This document shows positions 1,702 to 12,600 of a stretch of 23,718 nucleotides of DNA, one piece after another. Both the position numbers and the translations under genes were made by a program. This stretch comes from a virus. Below the pieces are notes generated by a model. That model saw nothing but the letters and a program-made list of their open reading frames with translations. It made no database searches and was not told where the DNA came from. The stretch lies in IMG/VR virus record IMGVR_UViG_3300032086_001022, positions 1 to 23,718 of that record; one strand, written 5' to 3'. Position 1 is the stretch's first letter; the number at the start of each line of letters is the position of its first letter.

Positions 1702-3441
1702 TTAAAATGTACCTCCATCTAGCATTCCAAATGTTGGCACGTTTGATGTTACTTGTAATACCTGTCCGTTTGTTCCTGCTGCTGTAACTGATATTGCACC
1801 TGCAGTATTACCAAATAAAATACCATTATTAGTAAATGAAGACTGTCCAGTACCGCCTTCGGCAACCTCTAAATCAGTTGATAAGGTTAATGTATTAGCA
1901 ACAATATTTGCAGTAAAAGATGAATTAGCTGTTATAGAAATATTTGTTGTATTAGAAACTAATCCAGGTGATGCAAATAACGTTTTTAAAGTAGCCAGAT
2001 CTGTACTAGAATCTACACCATCAGAACTTGGATCCGTAGTTAAATTATCAAATAAAATATAAGTATTTGATGTTATATCTCTTACTAAACCAGTATAAGT
2101 CTCTGCAGATGTATTACCATACTCACCATAAAATCCAATATCAGTTGCATCTGTAAATGTTCCTGTATTTGCTTGTCCTTTTGCAAGTCTAATTACTGCA
2201 TCTTCTACCTCTAAATTAGTAGTCTCAAGTGATGTTAGCGTTCCTTGTACAGTTAAATCTTCTACTGTTAATGTACCTGCAATTGATACATTATTTTGGA
2301 ATGTTGCAACATTAGTAACAGTTACATTGCCAGTAACGGTAATTTGATTACTAAATGATGCATTGCCAGTAACTGTAATAACATTTGCAAATGTTGCATT
2401 ACCTGTAACATCTAAGTAACCATCGGTTATAATTGTATTTTGTGTAATAACTGTATTAACAGTTGAATTACCTATATCTATTCTATCTTCTGCAGCAACT
2501 AAATTACCTACTGCAAGTGCTGTACTATTAATAGTAACATTAGATGATGCATCTATAACTCTTACTATAGTAGAATTGGCGGCAACGTTAACTGTTGAAT
2601 TACCTACCTCAACTGTACCACCTGATCCTAAATCGATATAAGATGAATTAACAGCTAGTACATTAGTTGCATCACTTACATTTAAACTTGTAGAATTTGC
2701 TAATGCATTTACTGTTGAGTTTCCTATATCAACTGAGCCTGCAAGATCAATTGCAGAACTATTTACTGTTAATACATTTGTTGCATCGCTAACTAAAACT
2801 GTTGTAGAATTAGCTAAAGCATTTACTGTAGAATTACCGACATCAACTGTAGTTGTATTTACTGCAACATCACCAACATCTAAAGATGTAGTAATATCAA
2901 CATCGGCTGGTAGGCCAATAGTTAAATCATTATTACTAAATGCAACATCTACCTCATTTGCAGTACCTTGAATAAAATGTGGTTCCCATCTAGATGCTGT
3001 ATTATCATATACTAGATAATAATTATTTGCAATACCTGTTGTATCTACATCATCTAAACCAGTTAACTCTGCAGCTGAATTATTATCAACATAGTCTTTA
3101 ATAGCCCATGATGTAACAAGCATATTATTTGATACAGATGCCAGGTTACCATCATCGGTAATAGATGTAATATTTTTATTTGATGCTGGAGTACCTATTG
3201 CAAGGTTGGCTGTGTATAAATTATCTACCCAACTTGAATTATTAGCTACAATTGCTTGATTTGCAGTTAACGTACCTGGTGTTCTTTTTCCAGCTATTGG
3301 AATAGTATTGGAGGTATCTGACCCAACTGCACTACCAATAAAAAGGATTTCACCATTTGCGGTATATGCTAACTCTCCAGGTTGTAATACGGGAGCAGCA
3401 TTTGATGTACTCCTTTTAATTTGAATTGTGGTGTTCGCCAT
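1702..3441 (-). CDS. Tail fibre protein with internal repeats, 579 aa
   Basis: The N-terminal module (residues 1-50) has IQIKRSTS...LQPGELAYTANGEILFIG, typical of phage adhesin attachment regions. Residues about 85-160 ('ITSITDDGNLASVSNNMLVTSWAIKDYVDN', 'GLDDVDTTGIANNYYLVYDNTASRWEP') are usual in cyanophage fibres. Residues 199-329 hold three and a half copies of a 38-44 residue repeat with core (V/I)(D/E)(V/I)GNSTVN..ANST. Residues 345-378 hold three 11-residue TVTGN repeats, as in beta-helical shafts. Near the C-terminus is EGGTGQSSFTNNGILFGN (528-545), a common fibre motif, and the protein ends LDGGTF. The ATG overlaps the upstream TAA by one base and has a GGAGGA Shine-Dalgarno. The protein is very rich in Asn, Thr, Ser and Val and has almost no Cys, as expected of an elongated beta-fibre. 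Receptor and oligomeric state are unknown. Confidence 0.85.
   Translation of the reverse strand: MANTTIQIKRSTSNAAPVLQPGELAYTANGEILFIGSAVGSDTSNTIPIAGKRTPGTLTANQAIVANNSSWVDNLYTANLAIGTPASNKNITSITDDGNLASVSNNMLVTSWAIKDYVDNNSAAELTGLDDVDTTGIANNYYLVYDNTASRWEPHFIQGTANEVDVAFSNNDLTIGLPADVDITTSLDVGDVAVNTTTVDVGNSTVNALANSTTVLVSDATNVLTVNSSAIDLAGSVDIGNSTVNALANSTSLNVSDATNVLAVNSSYIDLGSGGTVEVGNSTVNVAANSTIVRVIDASSNVTINSTALAVGNLVAAEDRIDIGNSTVNTVITQNTIITDGYLDVTGNATFANVITVTGNASFSNQITVTGNVTVTNVATFQNNVSIAGTLTVEDLTVQGTLTSLETTNLEVEDAVIRLAKGQANTGTFTDATDIGFYGEYGNTSAETYTGLVRDITSNTYILFDNLTTDPSSDGVDSSTDLATLKTLFASPGLVSNTTNISITANSSFTANIVANTLTLSTDLEVAEGGTGQSSFTNNGILFGNTAGAISVTAAGTNGQVLQVTSNVPTFGMLDGGTF
2308..2409 (-). repeat. 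Three tandem 11-residue TVTGN shaft repeats
   Basis: Residues 345-378 of the 579-residue fibre read as three successive units of the form TVTGNxxFxNxI (VTGNATFANVI, TVTGNASFSNQI, TVTGNVTVTNVA). This is the pattern of short beta-helix turns in fibre shafts. The unit is kept at the protein level while codons vary. Confidence 0.7.
2455..2847 (-). repeat. GNSTVN repeats in tail fibre, 38-44 aa period
   Basis: Within the 579-residue fibre, GNSTVN occurs at residues 202, 240, 280 and 324. The first three are followed by (A/V)xANST and then by (S/I)DA(T/S)xxxx(V/I)NSx, with Leu or Val closing the unit. The last copy is partial. DNA copies are similar but not identical, so the array may still recombine and change shaft length. 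Confidence 0.8.
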
Positions 3442-3728
3442 TAAAATGTTCCTCCGTCTACTGACGTAATATCATCTGATTCTATTCTTTTTACAATATA
3501 TTTATCAGTATCCAAATCATATACTAATGTACTTCCATCAGGAACAGTTCCATTAGCTTCGAAGGTTTCATCCACATCTAGTAAGTTTGCTAATTGACTT
3601 ACTGATACTGATTGACTCTTAAGGGTTATTGGTGCAGTGTTTGATATATTTGTTCTGCTTCCTAATTGTGCAGATATACCTGAACTCTGTCTTACAGTTA
3701 CTGTTAATCCTGATTGATTAATAGGCAT
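3441..3728 (-). CDS. Small structural linker protein ending DGGTF, 95 aa
   Basis: A 95-residue protein, MPINQSGLTVTVRQSSG..., with a beta-rich N-terminus and a C-terminal part 'SQLANLLDVDETFEANGTVPDGSTLVYDLDTDKYIVKRI' that resembles the 'LTDVD...DGS.LVYD..T.KY' motif used in many marine phage structural proteins. It ends SVDGGTF, nearly the same tail as the following 579-residue fibre (MLDGGTF). The codons for DGGTF contain GGAGGA, which also acts as the ribosome binding site of the next gene. Its ATG overlaps the previous gene's TAA (TAATG at 3726-3730) and has only a weak Shine-Dalgarno, so translation is probably coupled. Function unknown; likely a fibre or baseplate component. Confidence 0.72.
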   Translation of the reverse strand: MPINQSGLTVTVRQSSGISAQLGSRTNISNTAPITLKSQSVSVSQLANLLDVDETFEANGTVPDGSTLVYDLDTDKYIVKRIESDDITSVDGGTF

Positions 3729-4057
3729 TACTTAGTTACCTCAGGCGTCACTGTTGCAATACCTTCTAATACTCTTGATACTGCAGATGCAGAATCAGTT
3801 AATTCAACATCATATACATATCTACCTGCTGTAAGACCAGATGTAGTATTAGCAGATAATGCAATTGTAACCGTTCCATTTGCACCACCTAAAGTAACAT
3901 CAAAACTTGTTGCAGTTGATGAAGTAAAATGTTTTCTTATTTGTGCAGCACCGGTATAATCAACTAAATTAACTAAATCACCATTATCATCAGTTAAAGT
4001 AACAGTAGTTGAAAATGTAGTGCCTTGATCAATAACAAGATTTGCTTTAGTTGCCAT
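3728..4057 (-). CDS. Beta-sandwich virion structural protein, 109 aa
   Basis: A 109-residue protein: MATKANLVIDQGTTFSTTVTL, 'DYTGAAQIRKHFTSSTATSFDVTL', 'GTVTIALSANTTSGLTAGRYVYDVELTDSASAVSRVLEGIATVTPEVTK'. The order (IDQGTTF start, TGA..IRK, alternating Val/Thr strands, GRYVYDVE, closing EGI.TVTPEVT) is that of a single Ig-like or upper-baseplate type beta-sandwich often found among tail genes of marine phages. It is the first gene after a late promoter and has an AAGGA Shine-Dalgarno six bases before the ATG. In read-through mRNA that Shine-Dalgarno can be base-paired in a hairpin. I infer a tail or baseplate decoration protein; no ligand-binding feature is visible. Confidence 0.8.
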   Translation of the reverse strand: MATKANLVIDQGTTFSTTVTLTDDNGDLVNLVDYTGAAQIRKHFTSSTATSFDVTLGGANGTVTIALSANTTSGLTAGRYVYDVELTDSASAVSRVLEGIATVTPEVTK

Positions 4058-4060
4058 ATA

Positions 4061-4097
4061 GTTTCCTTATCGTACTTTTATTTATACGATAAGAAAC
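4061..4097 (-). promoter_or_regulatory. Hairpin covering late promoter and Shine-Dalgarno of the 3728-4057 gene
   Basis: Directly after the stop codon at 4098, bases 4097-4085 (GTTTCTTATCGTA) pair with 4074-4061 (TACGATAAGGAAAC), giving a 13-bp stem with a single bulged G and a 10-base loop. The 3' arm contains AAGGA (4068-4064), the Shine-Dalgarno for the ATG at 4057. The TATAAATA box spans the top of the 5' arm and the loop. mRNA read through from upstream would hide the Shine-Dalgarno. mRNA started at the late promoter (near 4073) would lack the 5' arm and leave it free. Confidence 0.7.
4079..4086 (-). promoter_or_regulatory. T4-type late promoter box
   Basis: Perfect TATAAATA on the minus strand in the context GTATAAATAA, the same ten bases as the box at 1195-1202. 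With T4 spacing, transcription would begin near 4073, giving a leader of about 16 bases before the ATG at 4057. Expected to drive the genes from 3728-4057 down to 1209. Confidence 0.78.
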
Positions 4098-6068
4098 TTA
4101 ATAATTTTTATCTTTAGGGTATCTTGATGTCCAAATTGTTAGGCTATATTTAGTACCTTTTGTAAGAGTATTACATCTATGACCATGTGTTACTTGACCT
4201 GGCCATATAATAGCATCACCTACATTTACGTTTATATTAGAAAAATTCTGTCTAGGAAATATAAGTTCTCCCCCCTCATAATCCTCATTTAATTTAATAC
4301 TAAAACTTACAAGAGATGCATCATGATGTAAGGGTAGGCTAGTTTGTTCACCTTCACTATATTTAATTACAAACATATCTCTTATACCGTACATTAATAA
4401 AGGTTTCCAGTATTCTTCTATTGCCGAATAAATTCTACTCTTTAAATAATCTTTTATAATATTAAAAATAACATGACTAAAGTCTCTTATTCGTACTTCC
4501 TGTCCTGGAAACTTATCACCTGGCATTGATTTCCAATTATCAAAATAGTTTGCTTGTCTAATTATTTGATTACAATCATCTTTACTTAAAAAATTACATT
4601 GTAGTATTTCAGGTGCAACAACACTTATACTAGTTGTAGAAGGTAGTATTTGATTGAAGCTTAAATATTCATCACATATTTGTTTATACTTCTGTTTTGA
4701 TTTATCTCCACCATTTCCATGTAAGATAGATGGACAAGAATTAGTATAACCATTTACAAATTGTCTATTACTTAAATATCCTATTTCTCGTTCTGCACCA
4801 GCAAGACATGTAAAGATGTAACATTCATAATCTAAAACAGCATTTAGTTCTTTCTTTTTATCAAGATATTTCTTTTGATAGAATAATTGATCATCATCAG
4901 TATCTTTTATTTTATTTTCAATTAACTCTAATAAAGAATCAACATAACCTATTATACAACCACTATTTAAAAAGCGGTTATCGTTTCCATATGACTCAAA
5001 ATATTTTGCTAAGAATTGATCAGGCCAACAATTCTTCTCCGCTGCAAAAACAATATTTACTTTCATATCATTAAATTTTTGCAACAATTCTTTTTCAGTA
5101 TCATTTATTATAACATCAAAACCATCGACAAATAATACGATAAAGTTACCTTTATCTTGTTTTTTAAGTTCTAATAAATGATCGTAAAGTAAATTTACTT
5201 TTTGACCCCCACCGGTAGATTTCATACTACCACCATTCCATGGTATACCCTCACATAAATTTTTTATTTTTATTTTATTTACATTACATGATTTAATAAG
5301 CATGGAAGCTTTAGATTCATCATCATATGCTGTAACAACAGATAAAAGATTTTCATTACTATAACTACACTCTATATCAGAAGAAAACGTATTACGTGCA
5401 GGTCTAAAATTTTCCTTTAATCTTAAAGCATAAAATTTTTCTTTTAAATCTTTATTAAATAGTTTATTAAGTTTTTTAAAATTACAGAATACCTGCTTAC
5501 TATAACATGCTTCAGCATCATGTATATAATCTGTTTCATAATTCATACCATTTAATAAAGGAAAAAATTCATCAACAGGTATTAAATTATTTTGTAAGTT
5601 GTAGTCTAATAGTTTTTTAGCAAAAATAGGGGTTAAAATATATGCATTAGCCATATATGGATATGCAGGAATATTTTTAAAGTAATCTACTGATTTACTT
5701 TTTTCAGGTTGCATCTCTCTATGATAAAGATAAAGAAATCCTGATTCATTTATGTGTTCGTTTATTAGATTAAAATCTATCTTTTGTCTTAAAAGCGTGT
5801 CATCTTCTAATATAATGCTAGGCTTATTTAATTTTACAACTTCTTTCCATGCTTTTATATGTGATAGAGCACATCCTATCTCACCATTTGTTAAACCAAA
5901 TCTACCTGTTGTTGGGTCTATCCAGTTTTTAAAAATATTATATTCTTGATCTTCAAGGTGGTATCCATCAACTGCATCAATAATAGTATATTGATAATCC
6001 TTTAGTTGATTTTTAATATATTGAAGACGATCAACTCTATGCTTTAAATTAATAACAAAAATATTCAT
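4098..6068 (-). CDS. Three-domain collagen-lysine modifying enzyme: GT25 + LH3-type glycosyltransferase + 2OG-Fe(II) lysyl hydroxylase
   Basis: Residues 1-215 are a family-25 glycosyltransferase: INLKHRVDRL (6-15), GEIGCALSHIKAW (62-74), the ILEDD metal motif (86-90) and PVDEFFPLL (164-172), the last as in collagen galactosyltransferases. Residues about 241-465 match the glucosyltransferase domain of animal lysyl hydroxylase 3: GGGQKV (286-291), VDGFDV (314-319, D315/D318 in the place of LH3 D112/D115), CWPD (347-350), FLNSG (366-370), DDDQLFY (391-397) and HGNG (450-453). Residues about 485-650 are a 2-oxoglutarate/Fe(II) oxygenase: LPLHHDAS with H581/D583, DYEGGELIF (596-604), third iron ligand H630 and K640 where LH3 has Arg. 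The LH3 accessory domain is missing. Expected chemistry: Lys to hydroxylysine, then galactosyl- and glucosyl-hydroxylysine. The gene follows the collagen-like fibre and chaperone by 14 bases and has no clear Shine-Dalgarno. Domain calls are firm; the substrate is inferred. Confidence 0.9.
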   Translation of the reverse strand: MNIFVINLKHRVDRLQYIKNQLKDYQYTIIDAVDGYHLEDQEYNIFKNWIDPTTGRFGLTNGEIGCALSHIKAWKEVVKLNKPSIILEDDTLLRQKIDFNLINEHINESGFLYLYHREMQPEKSKSVDYFKNIPAYPYMANAYILTPIFAKKLLDYNLQNNLIPVDEFFPLLNGMNYETDYIHDAEACYSKQVFCNFKKLNKLFNKDLKEKFYALRLKENFRPARNTFSSDIECSYSNENLLSVVTAYDDESKASMLIKSCNVNKIKIKNLCEGIPWNGGSMKSTGGGQKVNLLYDHLLELKKQDKGNFIVLFVDGFDVIINDTEKELLQKFNDMKVNIVFAAEKNCWPDQFLAKYFESYGNDNRFLNSGCIIGYVDSLLELIENKIKDTDDDQLFYQKKYLDKKKELNAVLDYECYIFTCLAGAEREIGYLSNRQFVNGYTNSCPSILHGNGGDKSKQKYKQICDEYLSFNQILPSTTSISVVAPEILQCNFLSKDDCNQIIRQANYFDNWKSMPGDKFPGQEVRIRDFSHVIFNIIKDYLKSRIYSAIEEYWKPLLMYGIRDMFVIKYSEGEQTSLPLHHDASLVSFSIKLNEDYEGGELIFPRQNFSNINVNVGDAIIWPGQVTHGHRCNTLTKGTKYSLTIWTSRYPKDKNY

Positions 6069-6082
6069 AATATAATTATAGT

Positions 6083-6442
6083 TTAATCAGGTTTTGATGG
6101 CCAGTTGTCTGCCTCTCTCCATTCTAGTGGATTAGTAATACTTTCAGGTAAATCTCTTAATTGCTGTCTGTATGTTGCCCATTCTGCTCTTTTACTAGAA
6201 GTAAGAACATCTCCAGATTGTGTCCAATCAGATTCAGCTAATTTTAGATTTCTATCATCTCTGATACCTTGTAATATATCATCATTAGACATAGGTGCTC
6301 TAGGTAAGGGTACGTTACCTTCAGCTAACCATTCTTTATAGATGCTTAATTGCTGACTAGGAGGACCATCTGTAAAGATAGTATATTTTTCTTCTAGATG
6401 CATAATTTCATTACCTTCTTCATTAACTATCTGATATGACAT
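6083..6442 (-). CDS. Tail fibre assembly chaperone (Phage_tail_APC type), 119 aa
   Basis: From the ATG at 6442 the protein is 119 residues. It has the C-terminal signature of phage tail fibre assembly chaperones: RDDRNLKLAESDWTQ (61-75), an acidic/Ser linker, then WATYRQQLRDLPE (88-100) and a Trp-Pro end (NWPSKP). An in-frame ATG at 6460 would add six residues, but it has no ribosome binding site and lies inside the fibre gene. The ATG at 6442 overlaps the fibre TAA by one base and has AGGAG seven bases upstream, so it is preferred. Such proteins act in the host cytoplasm, helping trimeric fibres fold, and are normally encoded directly after the fibre they serve, as here. That makes the collagen-like fibre its probable client. 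Confidence 0.82.
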   Translation of the reverse strand: MSYQIVNEEGNEIMHLEEKYTIFTDGPPSQQLSIYKEWLAEGNVPLPRAPMSNDDILQGIRDDRNLKLAESDWTQSGDVLTSSKRAEWATYRQQLRDLPESITNPLEWREADNWPSKPD

Positions 6443-8553
6443 TATAACTCTCCTAACCATTCAATTTTACCATATGGATGACTTCCTCCATCTGATACTT
6501 GATTTACTCTATTACCACCTGAAACTACAGTTTTAGTATGCCCATAAGACATATTATATCTTAAACGACTTATACCTTCAGGTGATGCTTGACCGACTGC
6601 AAAACTGTTTACTGTATAGCCACCAGAACGTCCAAGGTGACTATTATTATCAGGTACTATATCTAAAACAAACGTTGTATTACGAGTACCAGTACCAGAA
6701 CCTTTACGTATCCATCTTGCTGTACTTCCTCTAACGTTTGGCATTATAGCATTTGTAAATACTGCTCCTCCAAATACTGAATCAGCTGCTGCAGCACAAA
6801 TAAGTTGCATATCTATATCAGCATCTGTTTTAGCATAATATCTTTGCATCTGTACTGCTTTTAAAGCAGGATCTGGTCGAACAAATGGTGTAGCAACGCT
6901 TCCCTTTTCAAGCTGTACATTTGATATGTATAGGAAGTCACCTACATTTGCATCAGAAATATCACACCAAATCATAACCGCTAGATTCTGAATAGTACTT
7001 GGACTAGGATCGGCAAAACTAGCTGTAATGGTTACATCTGTAAATTCAGAATCAGATATATTTAAATTTACTGGTGAATTTTCATAGTTAAAATTAGTAT
7101 TAAGAGTAGGGTTAGTAGCATCAGCATTCCATGCCGATATTGGATCATTAGATAAACCATTAGTACCCCCATACCATGAAATAATAGCTGCCTTAACATT
7201 ATCAATAGTAGTTGCATCAGATGTTTTTGCTTTAAAAGATAAAGTGGCAACACCTGCCTCAATAATATCCTGACAATTTTGTCTTTCAATATATTGTATT
7301 ATTCCAAATTTACTTCCTGTGGTTTCAACATCAAATCTAAATGCATATTGTTCTTTACCATGTGTGTAAGTTGGTGTGTTAGTAGTTTCACGACCTAAAT
7401 CAACTATGTTATTACCATCACTAATTAACTTCCATCTATCACAGACATATTCTGTATCACTATTGATTGCAAAATCATCATTAGAGAAAACATTATCTAT
7501 TGAAGTTCCTCTTTGCCAATATTCAAAGTTACCGTTCATTATAGCATTATGTGTACCAAAAGATGTATTTGATTCTGCAAAAGCCGTTACAACTGTATTA
7601 CCGGTTAATGCTGTATCTCCTTTATCGCCTTTTTGACCTAGTTCTCCTTTTTGTCCTTTTTGACCCTTCTCACCTTTTTGACCTTTTAGTCCAACAATAT
7701 TAAATGTACTTGCATCGGAGTTTGTAAAGGTTGTTGTATTAGTACCGTCATCAAAAGATGCACTATTAATTTGTTCACCTTTTTGTCCTAGTTCACCTTT
7801 CTGACCTTTTTGTCCTTTTTCACCTTTTTGACCTTTATCACCATATCGAATAAAGTTCAATGCAAGTGTGTCACCATTTGCATATGCAACATTGGCTGTT
7901 TCAATACAACTAACTCCTGTAAATTGTACAAAACCTGTATTGGCTACAACTGTACTATAGGTAAAGGATTGTGTTTTTGTTGTATCATCAATATCTTTAA
8001 TAACTATTGTACCTGCTGGATCTGAATTACCATCATCTAAAGTTGCAAGAAATGCTGCAACATTTGCACCACCAACTATTTTATTATCTACTGCAATAAC
8101 ATTTGCAGCCGCGTTATTGGCACTATTAAATATAATAGTATTATCACCTGGATCTGAATCAGTATCTATTACTGAATTATCAAATGTGAAAGAATAATTA
8201 TCATCGTATGTTTTTAATGGATATCTACTTGATCCATCATTTGTAAATTCCCATCTATCATTTACCTCATTCCAAGATAGTTCAACATTAGCTGATGAAC
8301 CTCTATTTACTGTTACTGATACATTACTACCTGGTGGATCAGATAATGTTAATCCATCTGAAAATACAAGTGATGTGTTTTGTGTTGAAAGAGCAGCTGT
8401 TATTTCTGCATTACCAGTAACAGTTAGATTTTCTATGGTTACTGAATTTGATAATTGAATTGCACCGTTTACGGTAAGATCACCTGTAACGTTTAAATTT
8501 TCCGTTACATCTAAGCCATACTTTACTCTAAAGTTTTGATTATTTGCTGCCAT
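6442..8553 (-). CDS. Tail fibre with two collagen-like Gly-X-Lys tracts, 703 aa
   Basis: The N-terminus (NFRVKYGLDVTENLNVTGDLTV) and the part to about residue 115 (strand-rich 'VTIENLTVTGNAEI', 'ELSWNEVNDRWEFTNDG') are of the type shared by cyanophage fibres. Residues 238-261 (8 triplets) and 288-314 (9 triplets) are perfect Gly-X-Y repeats with 13 Lys, all at Y, and no Pro; a 26-residue non-collagen spacer separates them. Residues about 336-570 form a fibre module, MNGNFEYWQRGTS through QLEKGSVATPF and ALKAVQMQRYY, which in other phages looks like a galactose-binding or carbohydrate-binding fold. A distinct Gly/Ser/Asn-rich domain ends the protein and is the likely receptor-binding tip. An AGGGAAG Shine-Dalgarno precedes the ATG. 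The collagen tracts imply a trimer. The next two genes are a fibre chaperone and a collagen-lysine modifying enzyme, so the tract lysines are likely its targets. Confidence 0.88.
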   Translation of the reverse strand: MAANNQNFRVKYGLDVTENLNVTGDLTVNGAIQLSNSVTIENLTVTGNAEITAALSTQNTSLVFSDGLTLSDPPGSNVSVTVNRGSSANVELSWNEVNDRWEFTNDGSSRYPLKTYDDNYSFTFDNSVIDTDSDPGDNTIIFNSANNAAANVIAVDNKIVGGANVAAFLATLDDGNSDPAGTIVIKDIDDTTKTQSFTYSTVVANTGFVQFTGVSCIETANVAYANGDTLALNFIRYGDKGQKGEKGQKGQKGELGQKGEQINSASFDDGTNTTTFTNSDASTFNIVGLKGQKGEKGQKGQKGELGQKGDKGDTALTGNTVVTAFAESNTSFGTHNAIMNGNFEYWQRGTSIDNVFSNDDFAINSDTEYVCDRWKLISDGNNIVDLGRETTNTPTYTHGKEQYAFRFDVETTGSKFGIIQYIERQNCQDIIEAGVATLSFKAKTSDATTIDNVKAAIISWYGGTNGLSNDPISAWNADATNPTLNTNFNYENSPVNLNISDSEFTDVTITASFADPSPSTIQNLAVMIWCDISDANVGDFLYISNVQLEKGSVATPFVRPDPALKAVQMQRYYAKTDADIDMQLICAAAADSVFGGAVFTNAIMPNVRGSTARWIRKGSGTGTRNTTFVLDIVPDNNSHLGRSGGYTVNSFAVGQASPEGISRLRYNMSYGHTKTVVSGGNRVNQVSDGGSHPYGKIEWLGEL
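6450..6454 (-). promoter_or_regulatory. Shine-Dalgarno that sets the chaperone start
   Basis: AGGAG on the minus strand, seven bases before the ATG at 6442-6440. The upstream in-frame ATG at 6460 has no such site. The site lies within the last codons of the fibre gene. Confidence 0.75.
7612..7692 (-). repeat. Collagen-like tract 2 (9 Gly-X-Y triplets)
   Basis: Encodes GLK GQK GEK GQK GQK GEL GQK GDK GDT. Seven of nine triplets end in Lys and none contains Pro. A 20-residue core is identical to tract 1 although many codons differ at the third base. Confidence 0.92.
7771..7842 (-). repeat. Collagen-like tract 1 (8 Gly-X-Y triplets)
   Basis: Encodes GDK GQK GEK GQK GQK GEL GQK GEQ. Six of eight triplets end in Lys; Lys-Gly-Glu steps, known to stabilise collagen helices through ion pairs, occur in place of Pro. 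Confidence 0.92.
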
Positions 8554-8575
8554 TTAGCTTCCCTATCCACTAAAA

Positions 8576-9403
8576 TTATTCGAATGCTGTTTGTATAAAA
8601 TTGAATGTACTATTTACTGCAGAGTTACATAATAATTCAAAATGAGTAGCATTAGCAGAAACACTATAGGTAATAAATTGACTACCTGTATGTACTGAAC
8701 CGTATTCAGTTACATGGGCATTACTTGATCCATATACAACAATAAGTTCTGTTAATGATCTATTGTCAGCATTTGCAGTTTCAAATGCATTCAAAGTATA
8801 TTTAGCACTTTTATAATCTGATATTGCAACATTAGTAATTGTATTTGTAGTAGTATCATCACCACTAGTCCAAGTAAGTGCAATTGTGTTACAATATAGT
8901 TGTGCTTCTCCTGTAAATGTAATTTTATTATTTACTGAAATATCACCTGTTATCGTAACTGATGAATCTACTTCAATATTTGATGTTGCAGTAATATCAA
9001 ATGTAGCCGTATTAACTGTTAGATTAGCTACATTCACATAAACGTTCTGTGATGCATCTCCTACAGACGTATTTGATGTTATTGTTAAAGAGTTAGAAGA
9101 TATTGTGGTACTATAACCGGTTACTGTTACATTACTTGAAACTGTACTATTTGAAAACCCTACACTTAAAGCTGCATGAGCTGCTGTATTACCAGCTTCA
9201 CCACCTATTACTGCTTCAGTCTTTAAATTATTAGCTGAAAGTAATCCAATAACATTTACATTACCAGATGTATTGGCCCCTGCCTGTGTTGAATCAGCTG
9301 TTACTGCATATACTGACATTGAATCTGCAAGCTGGTTAGTTGTCTCAACCCATCCTGCAAATGTTCCTGTTGCTATAACAACATTTGATACGCTTCTAGT
9401 CAT
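8576..9403 (-). CDS. Fibre-like structural protein, 275 aa
   Basis: The N-terminus contains 'FAGWVETTNQLADSMSVYAVTA' (residues about 14-36), a helical phage-fibre attachment pattern. Residues about 45-160 are short repeated strands with TVTG/ITSN/VTI units, typical of a beta-structured shaft. The C-terminal 100 residues (DYKSAKYTLNAFETANADNRSLTELIVVYGSSNAHVTEYGSV... to FNFIQTAFE) match a beta-sandwich end domain found on many marine phage structural proteins ('AKY......R..TE.LVV....A..TEYG'). The ATG overlaps the 72-residue gene by eight bases. The 22-base gap to the collagen-like fibre downstream suggests the two are made together; this may be the proximal fibre part or an adapter that connects fibre to baseplate, which is inference. 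Confidence 0.78.
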   Translation of the reverse strand: MTRSVSNVVIATGTFAGWVETTNQLADSMSVYAVTADSTQAGANTSGNVNVIGLLSANNLKTEAVIGGEAGNTAAHAALSVGFSNSTVSSNVTVTGYSTTISSNSLTITSNTSVGDASQNVYVNVANLTVNTATFDITATSNIEVDSSVTITGDISVNNKITFTGEAQLYCNTIALTWTSGDDTTTNTITNVAISDYKSAKYTLNAFETANADNRSLTELIVVYGSSNAHVTEYGSVHTGSQFITYSVSANATHFELLCNSAVNSTFNFIQTAFE

Positions 9404-9614
9404 TTTTCTCTAATAATCCTTTAACTAAAATTTTTAAATCTCTTAATTCATCTTCTAGCTTACCGATTCTTTCATCTTTCATCTTTACCGATAATCTATC
9501 TTTTCTTTGTTGCTTATATAATTTATAAGCATGTACATTAGTATTTATTAAGGCATTAGACTCTTTATCTCTTTTAAAATCAGTAAGTGGTGTTTTTAAT
9601 AACTCTCTTTCCAT
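9396..9614 (-). CDS. Small coiled-coil protein, 72 aa
   Basis: A 72-residue, very charged protein: MERELLKTPLTDFKRDKESN, a helical middle 'AYKLYKQQRKDRLSVKMKDERIG' and 'KLEDELRDLKILVKGLLEKND', a short leucine-zipper-like coil. The ATG shares one base with the TAA of the giant DUF4815 gene (TAATG) and has no good Shine-Dalgarno, so its translation probably depends on ribosomes finishing that gene. Its 3' end overlaps the next gene by eight bases. It is a real gene by its coupling, its in-frame coverage of an otherwise empty stretch and its biased composition. Function unknown; an oligomerisation or assembly factor for the neighbouring fibre is possible. Confidence 0.72.
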   Translation of the reverse strand: MERELLKTPLTDFKRDKESNALINTNVHAYKLYKQQRKDRLSVKMKDERIGKLEDELRDLKILVKGLLEKND

Positions 9615-12600
9615 TATACTGATACTGCTACTGCCCTTAAATCATCAACCTCTGGTACATTATATTCATTTTCAGAAAGTAATACTATCTTAATTGCTAG
9701 ATGTTTATAACCATCATACGCTCTATTCTCACTATCATGATATCTTACTTCATTACTATTTTGATTATACTTGAATGCTTCACCTTTATTAGTAATTTTT
9801 TGTATGCTAGCAGAAGATGATGCTGTACCTAATGTTGCACTTATTTCAAAAGAACCTGCAACTGGTGTATTTGCAACACTTACAACTTCGTAATCATCTT
9901 CATCATCTGTATATACAACTTTAATTAAATCGTTATTTGCTAGTTCTGAATCGTATGAAGAACCTATACCGTTAATAGTAGTATTAGTACCAGTTGCATT
10001 TGTTGTTGCTGCTCCTGCAATAACTGATACTACTGGTGTTTTCTTAAATGTAAACTCATACTCTTTTAAATCACCACTATTTAAAGATGAACTGAATACA
10101 CCTGCATCAGTAACTTGTCTTAATGGAGACCAGTCCTTATCTTCAAATAATTCTGGATCCTGACTACTTAATATTTTAGCATATACTTTAATATCAGATC
10201 CACTTGGTTTATATGCTCTTACAAATACTTTAACATCTTCTGCATCTAAACCATCTTCTAATACTAATCTCTTAGATATGTACTTACATGATGAATTACC
10301 ATATCTAGTATTTTCATCTGCATAGCTATTATTAATGTTATAGTTTATGACTAATACGCTTGATGGATTAACATCTACTACTGGTGATGTATCGTCATAT
10401 GTTGCAGTAAATTGAATATTTGCTGTAAATGATTTAGTAATTGTTGTACCACTAATTTCATTAGATCTACTTTTAACTACTGCTGTATCGTTACATTGTA
10501 AGACATTTTGTTCTGTAAATAGATGTGCTTCAGTAGCAGTACCACCACCTGACTTAGTTACCTCTGTATCTAAAGCAAGAGTTGTTTGAGATAAAATTAA
10601 ATTATTAATAAATGGTGTATACTTACTAAACTTAACATTATCTACACTAAAGAGTTTAGATTGTGCTTCTGATTGATCACCAACTAAGTATCCTAAGTAT
10701 GTACTATTTGCAGCTTCAAATAAATGTGTACTATTAGCTGAAGTACTATCTCTAAGATATAATTTTTGATCTGATGAATTATAGTAATCCATTCTACCAG
10801 TAACAACTTTTTGTAATACTGCTTTATTAAATGTATTGACAACATATGCAGGAGGTCTATTAACTGTAAATGAAGTACTATTTGCTGCCTGTACGGTAAA
10901 TACATCAAACTTTTCAGTTACTGCATAATGCTTATCGTTGGTAATAGTACTTACAAAAGCTACATCGACATTTAAACTTGTAGCGCTAGCAATAGAAACT
11001 ACCTGTCTTACTTCATCACCAATTTGTATGAAGTCACCTGCTGAATATTCATTACTAAAATCAGTAGTTGTTGAACTTGCATTAGTAACCGTTACTCCAG
11101 TTACTGTTACGTTTGCTGTACTTTCTGAATTACTTGTTCCATATATTACTAATACTTTATCATTTACAGATAATGTAGAAGTTAAATCGTTATTAGTAGT
11201 AATAACTCTACTTGATGTATTAGTTGTTAGAGCTGTATCAATATATGCATGATCCATTTGTGCAATATCTTCACCACCTGTGTAACTACCACTTGCAACA
11301 TTTACAGTTAAAAATTCATAATCACCGTTTTCTAATACTGCTGTTCCTGATTGACTACTAAACTCAGCCCTGTTAACTTTAAACTTAAGATCTTCACCCT
11401 GTATTGCAGAGAATGCCCTATTACTAGTAGAGGAGAATAATGTACCTAAACCCCAACTTTGATTAGATATTAAAGATGTATCAGTAACATCTGGTACACC
11501 TGGTTCAGATGTCCATACTCTATAATCTGGCGAGTTAGCATCAGGTGATATAACTATTGCATATTCAACACCTGCTTTTAAAACTAATGGTGAATTAAAA
11601 GTAAATTTAGTAGATGTTGCTGCTGTTGCACTAGTATTAATATCTGCAGGTCTCTTATATACTCTAGAATATGGTATTGATAAAGTAGTAGGATATCCTG
11701 TTTCTTGATCTACCTCTCTTAATTCAATAGCAACACCTCTTGTTGCATCTTTACCTTGAAAATATAATTCTACTGAGCTTACTAATAGATAATCACTTCC
11801 TTTTTGTCTATCTACAGTAAATGTTTGACATAATGGATCCCATGCTCTTACAACAATACTATGCCACTCTCTTCTGGTTGTTCTTGTTTGTGAGAATGTT
11901 CTTCTTGCAAAACTATGACCGCTTGATAAATCAAAATCTTTAGTATTAACTGTTAATGCAGTTGCAGCACCTGATGTACCAAATGATGCAAACTTACCTA
12001 TTGCTTTAGATGTAGCTGAATCTTCTGAAGCAAGAGTGTTAAAGTCCATAACTAAAAATTCTTTTTCCCCTGAGGTAAATGTATTTGCTGGCATGTTTAC
12101 TATAACAGCAAGTTCACCTGTTGAATTAGCAGTTAATGTTTGTGAACCAGTTTTAGATGCTGTCTCTAAGAAGTCATCAACAGAAAGTTCTCCAGTTACT
12201 GATTCAGGTAACAATCCAGGTCTACAACTACTAGATATATCTGTATTATCAAAAAATACAAAATGTTCTGCACCAGGTCTTAAACCATTGATATACAAGC
12301 ATATTTTTTGTGCTCTTATATAAGGATTAATAGATACACTGGTTAAGAAATTACCTACCTCATTTACTGATGATTTTGTTGGAGGTACTGTAATACCTTG
12401 AAATGATGTTCTTGTTGTAGTAGTAACAGTATTTTTATGAACTGTAGTTGAACTTGGTCTATTACCTATCCAATCTCTAGCCCATGCATTCCAATCATTT
12501 AAACCACTACCTTGGAAAACTAAATCTCTAGAACGGTTAGTTGTAGTAGAAGATGTTTGTGTAATAGCTCTATTAATTGCATTTTGCGCTCTTACTAATT

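Follow-up and report, generated by a model that had tools for sequence, protein, structure and literature searches.

The 23,718-nucleotide stretch analysed here (the window; positions 1 to 23,718 of IMG/VR virus record IMGVR_UViG_3300032086_001022) contains T4-like baseplate genes and, on its minus strand, a collagen-like tail-fibre gene followed by genes for a fibre assembly chaperone and for an enzyme of the collagen-lysine modifying type, for which the fibre is the proposed substrate:

6442..8553, minus strand: collagen-like tail-fibre gene, 703 amino acids (PF01391 above cut-off; PHROG tail-fibre families, best 8e-26)
6083..6460, minus strand: tail-fibre assembly chaperone (Phage_tail_APC; PF16778, 5.1e-15), a family also encoded at the corresponding position in Roseobacter phage CRP-6 and present in other enzyme loci
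4098..6068, minus strand: three-domain collagen-lysine modifying enzyme, 656 amino acids, PHROG 61 (Pfam, PHROGs and PDB sequence matches; AlphaFold model and structure search)

The three genes lie where the initial annotation, a reading of the sequence alone, had placed them, and its identification of the first two is upheld by Pfam matches above cut-off (PF01391 and PF16778). The chaperone gene ends at 6083 and begins either at ATG 6442 (MSYQIV), which gives the 1-base overlap with the fibre gene that had been described, or at an upstream ATG at 6460; the 14-base gap between the chaperone and enzyme genes (6069-6082) is likewise confirmed. At the DNA level, a search of the region 3400-9700 against phage records returned one short match only.

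Gly-X-Y runs of such a kind are confined, within the window, to the open reading frame (ORF) of the fibre, as had been noted, and the presence of uninterrupted tracts within a phage fibre protein, GDKGQKGEKGQKGQKGELGQKGEQ and GLKGQKGEKGQKGQKGELGQKGDKGDT, identifies it as a collagen-like tail fibre:

7771..7842, minus strand: collagen tract 1, fibre residues 238-261, 8 triplets, 6 Y-position lysines, no proline
7612..7692, minus strand: collagen tract 2, fibre residues 288-314, 9 triplets, 7 Y-position lysines, no proline

All 13 lysines of these proline-free tracts occupy the Y position instead of X (a chance of about 1 in 8,000 by our own arithmetic), and each is followed by glycine, in agreement with the earlier description.

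The enzyme had been labelled 'LH3/GT25-type'. Both types are indeed present among the Pfam matches above cut-off (GT25, PF01755; GT_PLOD, PF25342; 2OG-FeII_Oxy_3, PF13640, where 2OG denotes 2-oxoglutarate), and to this is added that a single protein fuses three domains, two glycosyltransferases (GT) and a lysyl hydroxylase (LH):

5469..6068, minus strand: GT25 domain, residues ~1-200 (structural match to 237), COLGALT1 GalT-C-like (PF01755, 1.1e-27)
4665..5357, minus strand: GT_PLOD domain, residues 238-468, LH3-like collagen glucosyltransferase (PF25342, 2e-56)
4101..4664, minus strand: lysyl hydroxylase domain, residues 469-656 (PF13640; LH3 and L230 sequence matches)

By sequence, the closest solved chains are human LH3, mimivirus R699, human COLGALT1 and mimivirus L230, with the GT25 domain matching residues 303-491 of the COLGALT1 chain (1.2e-16). 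In the AlphaFold model of the enzyme (mean predicted local distance difference test score 83.9), residues 1-237 match residues 340-580 of COLGALT1 (9evj; VIA Z 25.2, root-mean-square deviation (rmsd) 2.0), residues 238-468 match the GGT domain of human LH3 (6wfv; VIA Z 32.7, rmsd 1.7, 34% identity) as well as mimivirus R699 (VIA Z 31.6), and residues 468-648 match the LH domain of mimivirus L230 (VIA Z 22.3, rmsd 2.0). Sequence and predicted structure therefore agree on a COLGALT1-like GT25 domain, an LH3-like glucosyltransferase and a lysyl hydroxylase in one chain, and galactosyltransferase activity on hydroxylysine is predicted for the GT25 domain. The GT part extends to residue 468 and the LH part starts at about 468, leaving no residues between them for the GT-accessory-LH architecture of LH3, and Pfam recognises one GT25 domain, GalT-C-like, instead of the two-domain GalT-N/GalT-C architecture of COLGALT1. 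Given the three domain-wise matches and the absence of the accessory domain, the enzyme looks like a one-chain form of the animal LH3/COLGALT1 complex. Under the existing PHROG 61 annotation, this protein would be one of the ordinary auxiliary 2OG oxygenases that marine phages carry, unrelated to collagen, but the sequence and structure matches, including the lower scores of prolyl 4-hydroxylases against the LH domain (VIA Z 18.2 or less, compared with 22.3 for L230), render that hardly credible.

Conservation of the predicted active sites was counted over 62 enzyme representatives:

5799..5807, minus strand: EDD metal motif E88-D89-D90 of the GT25 domain, aligned with COLGALT1 E435-D436-D437
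5115..5126, minus strand: DxxD Mn2+ motif D315-D318 of the glucosyltransferase domain, invariant
4320..4328, minus strand: HxD of the Fe(II) facial triad, H581-D583, invariant
4185-4187, minus strand: third Fe ligand H628, invariant
4149-4151, minus strand: K640, probably 2OG-binding, invariant

These assignments are based on data for LH3, R699 and COLGALT1 (PMC9546862; PMC13382579), namely the EDD motif of COLGALT1 (PMC13382579), the DxxD motif that is essential in R699 (PMC9546862) and the LH3 iron triad H667-D669-H719 (PMC13382579). The GT25 domain has the fold and the EDD metal site of COLGALT1 GalT-C, with E88 and D90 invariant and position 89 occupied by Asp in 56 representatives and Glu in 6. 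The GT_PLOD domain has the DxxD Mn motif, the poly-Asp DD, the gating Trp and the HGNG motif (D315, D318, D393, H450 and N452 invariant; D392 in 61/62, W348 in 58/62), while the C-terminal part is a double-stranded β-helix 2OG-Fe(II) domain with an HxD...H triad (H581/D583/H628), nearest to LH3 and L230. Activity could be narrower than this, comprising hydroxylation alone or hydroxylation plus one sugar, with one GT domain structural; indeed, the N-terminal domain of COLGALT1 is structural and inactive fused GT domains occur in this family (PMC13382579), and mimivirus L230 yields glucosyl-hydroxylysine directly (PMC9546862). Both GT domains nevertheless retain their metal and substrate motifs, with E88, D90, D166, W277, D315, D318, N368, D393 and H450 unchanged in all 62 representatives, and such a restricted activity is judged rather unlikely.

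The association of the enzyme with collagen-like fibres was surveyed in the best 80 of 462 confirmed IMG/VR relatives plus phage records, which form 52 clusters at 90% identity, 30 of them with at least 5 kb of upstream sequence. A same-strand collagen-like ORF (at least 8 triplets and at least 2 Y-position lysines, within 5 kb) is present in 30/30 of the latter clusters, and an opposite-strand one in 0/30. The enzyme contigs that have no collagen gene (L008, L030, L036, L042, L079 and others) all fall short of 5 kb of upstream sequence, L030 reaching 4.6 kb; this last contig adjoins neck genes and is cut off on its downstream side. Among complete phage genomes, all four enzyme carriers (S-CAM9, S-PRM1, S-8S55 and CRP-6) have a collagen-like fibre, compared with a run of three Gly-X-Lys triplets in 0/12 enzyme-free T4-like genomes, in which other collagen-like sequence may occur; Synechococcus phages account for 10 of the 12, and most of them are in the carriers' family Kyanoviridae. 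CRP-6 itself has 97 triplets with 26 Y-position lysines and no run of three Gly-X-Lys triplets. Whole records served as the control, the neighbourhood of the baseplate gene gp6 having been dropped, with the fibre more than 10 kb from gp6. A predominance of enzyme homologues in collagen-free genomes, which the initial annotation had named as the outcome that would speak against it, was not seen. As many genes of the fibre region are co-oriented, the target might conceivably be a lysine of another virion or host protein, with the collagen-like fibre a bystander; this is made very improbable indeed by the recurrence of the association in an unrelated phage of 45 kb as well as across the 30 clusters, by the fact that the enzyme can precede or follow the fibre, and by the lysine signature typical of linked fibres.

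For this signature, the share of lysine at Y was obtained with collagen ORFs picked without any lysine requirement at 30 enzyme-linked and 110 unlinked loci. The median share of lysine at Y is 34% in linked fibres (n = 30) versus 0 at unlinked viral loci (n = 110; Mann-Whitney p = 4e-14, and p = 1e-10 for linked versus unlinked loci below 42% GC, both values being indicative). The Lys:Arg ratio at Y in linked fibres is 1154:34, as against 737:546 in the remainder of the same proteins, and at X it is 1:27, lysine being nearly absent from that position. A collagen-first scan with GQKGEKGQK is lysine-biased, and a scan for glycine at every third codon was used for the Lys:Arg comparison instead. 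In the collagens of E. coli prophages, Lys and Arg are both used at Y (PMC3368898), and the preference for Lys over Arg in linked fibres is consequently not what helix stability alone would predict. The enrichment of lysine and the avoidance of arginine at Y are features that a substrate relation predicts. Some unlinked loci are likewise rich in lysine and free of arginine, an example being the collagen-like ORF of locus L381 (217 Y-position lysines and no Y-position arginine in 415 triplets; enzyme absent from the 21.6-kb record); these are perhaps fragments of enzyme carriers.

The same signature is not predicted by an activity on lipopolysaccharide (LPS), which bears on the proposal that the enzyme glycosylates host surface polysaccharide to block superinfection and neighbours the fibre only through a shared host-recognition region. 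GT25 is named after LPS biosynthesis enzymes, and marine-phage papers that note collagen repeats and glycosyltransferases tie the latter to LPS, as the authors did for the glycosyltransferase-rich host-recognition regions of pelagimyophages (PMC7029224). The GT25 domain, however, is nearest among solved chains to COLGALT1 and then to mimivirus R655, and it is fused, in the order GT25, PLOD, LH, to an LH3-type glucosyltransferase and a lysyl hydroxylase in 110/110 ORFs that have all three domains, which leaves the polysaccharide proposal very unlikely.

On the combined evidence of sequence and modelling, it is highly probable that the phage collagen-like fibre is the target of the collagen-lysine modifying enzyme and that the enzyme decorates the fibre stalk, and the substrate relation put forward in the initial annotation is supported by its occurrence in clusters and complete genomes and by the lysine signature alike. 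For catalysis, sugar identity, reaction order, timing before folding and benefit, we infer the following course. The enzyme would bind newly made, unfolded fibre chains; its C-terminal domain would hydroxylate the Y-position lysine in X-Lys-Gly, the GT25 domain would attach galactose to the new hydroxyl and the PLOD domain would then attach glucose, giving glucosylgalactosyl-hydroxylysine, and the chains would trimerise afterwards, assisted by the chaperone. What the phage would probably gain is a stalk that is stiffer, hydrated and resistant to proteases, and that can be built from Gly-X-Lys triplets with no hydroxyproline needed.

Several observations weigh against this interpretation. The enzyme model predicts poorly how the domains are oriented to one another (predicted template modelling score 0.45), and the CRP-6 enzyme, as annotated, is without the first ~24 residues of its GT25 domain. 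The sequences behind the p values are related, and some linked fibres are poor in Y-position lysine (minimum 4%). Furthermore, when the search was made from the collagen side, by a scan for glycine at every third codon in which other residues were ignored (120 stretches), a GT_PLOD domain was found in 1/48 of the records with such stretches, a lower bound because many of these records are fragments, from a scan that requires 11 consecutive triplets and misses short tracts like those of the window. Most viral collagen-like genes are thus enzyme-free, and modification is not required for phage collagen generally. The co-occurrence anticipated by the initial annotation consequently holds from the side of the enzyme and fails from that of the collagen; the association is one-way, in that the enzyme implies a collagen-like fibre and the converse is not true.

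The description of the locus as a 'self-contained cassette' is accurate for the window and for CRP-6, in whose unrelated 45-kb genome the collagen fibre, PF16778 chaperone and enzyme genes follow one another as in the window, with overlapping ends, and does not extend to other carriers. In Kyanoviridae, two small 2OG oxygenases lie between the fibre and the enzyme; on some contigs the enzyme is 16-24 bases ahead of the fibre; and a chaperone homologue is found in 25/110 enzyme loci, not always adjoining the fibre. Fibre genes are flanked by paired small 2OG-Fe(II) oxygenases (L004, 8839-10004; L292, 16496-17724, S-CAM9), and the linked collagens rarely have proline at Y. On one viral contig (L172, 1525-3464), GT25 and PLOD-GT+LH are encoded by two separate, overlapping ORFs adjoining a collagen-like ORF, and in Marine virus AG-345-L05 (L008, 1835-4944) there is a tandem pair of GT25+PLOD proteins, of which the second lacks LH. 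In bacteria, Streptomyces kronopolitis (NZ_BMND01000001.1; L087, 8945-12561) has successive separate ORFs for a collagen-like protein, PLOD-GT+LH and GT25, a series that is a split counterpart of the phage fusion. Kaistia terrae has a PLOD-GT+LH protein without GT25 (L089, 9881-11233) and, 7.4 kb upstream, a collagen-like ORF in which several Gly-X-Lys triplets occur, and three Chlamydiae metagenome-assembled genomes (L090, L091, L092) have a lone PLOD-type glucosyltransferase domain without LH or GT25. A mobile phage cassette, in which one enzyme makes glucosylgalactosyl-hydroxylysine on Gly-X-Lys fibres, spread over unrelated backbones and with split bacterial counterparts as in Streptomyces, is a somewhat favoured account of this distribution.

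No description of lysine-modified phage collagen, a phage lysyl hydroxylase or hydroxylysine fibres was found in the open-licence literature; one uncultured Caudovirales entry in BFVD bears the name procollagen-lysine 5-dioxygenase, a label that probably stems from automatic annotation. The hydroxylation and glycosylation of collagen lysines are commonly presented as a matter for animals, mimivirus being the exception among viruses. If the proposed activity is real, ocean virions would bear hydroxylysine-linked disaccharides, a novel type of modification for virion proteins, and the two-enzyme complex of animals would have a one-chain phage counterpart. A function would be supplied for PHROG 61, a phage family so far recorded simply as a 2OG oxygenase, together with a partial answer to why marine viruses have collagen hydroxylases, a question asked for prolyl hydroxylase, the viral use of which has been called cryptic (PMC9301287). 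With the whole pathway in one phage chain, the protein would also be a compact enzyme for collagen biotechnology and a test case for the cooperation of two glycosyltransferases with a hydroxylase. Cultured carriers exist (S-CAM9, S-PRM1, S-8S55, CRP-6), so the system is directly testable.

Among the closest known systems, PHROG 61 '2OG-Fe(II) oxygenase' is the same family (24/24 aligned enzymes match, the window protein over its full length), although it is filed as an auxiliary metabolic gene without a collagen connection. The E. coli prophage EPclA fibres (PMC3368898) share a trimeric collagen segment in a phage fibre, but recombinant EPclA is unglycosylated, and these prophage collagens rely on proline at X, with both Lys and Arg at Y. 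The collagen prolyl hydroxylase of PBCV-1 and the prolyl 4-hydroxylase genes of marine viromes (PMC9301287) share the 2OG-Fe(II) oxygenase fold and a suspected link to viral collagen, whereas their target is proline, they have no glycosyltransferase and the structural match is weaker (Z ~16). By analogy, the system would work like the collagen-lysine modification of animals and mimivirus. Mimivirus modifies collagen lysines by means of the hydroxylase L230 and the glucosyltransferase R699, and has a putative GT25 protein, R655, and viral collagens of its own (PMC9546862); in contrast to the phage arrangement, L230, R699 and R655 are separate proteins, of a virus of amoebae, and tail fibres are not involved. 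Human LH3 (PLOD3) shares the GT_PLOD-LH domain order, the Mn motif and the Fe triad (28-34% identity over structurally aligned parts), but separates GT from LH by an accessory domain and carries no GT25, the phage enzyme being the reverse on both counts. The active GalT-C domain of COLGALT1 (GLT25D1) resembles the phage GT25 domain, including the EDD and PVDEF motifs, and on sequence and predicted structure the phage enzyme is related to both LH3 and COLGALT and an orthologue of neither. The COLGALT1-LH3 complex (8zgc, 9evj) unites the same three activities as are predicted for the phage enzyme, with two chains in animals as against one, lacking the scaffold GalT-N, in the phage.
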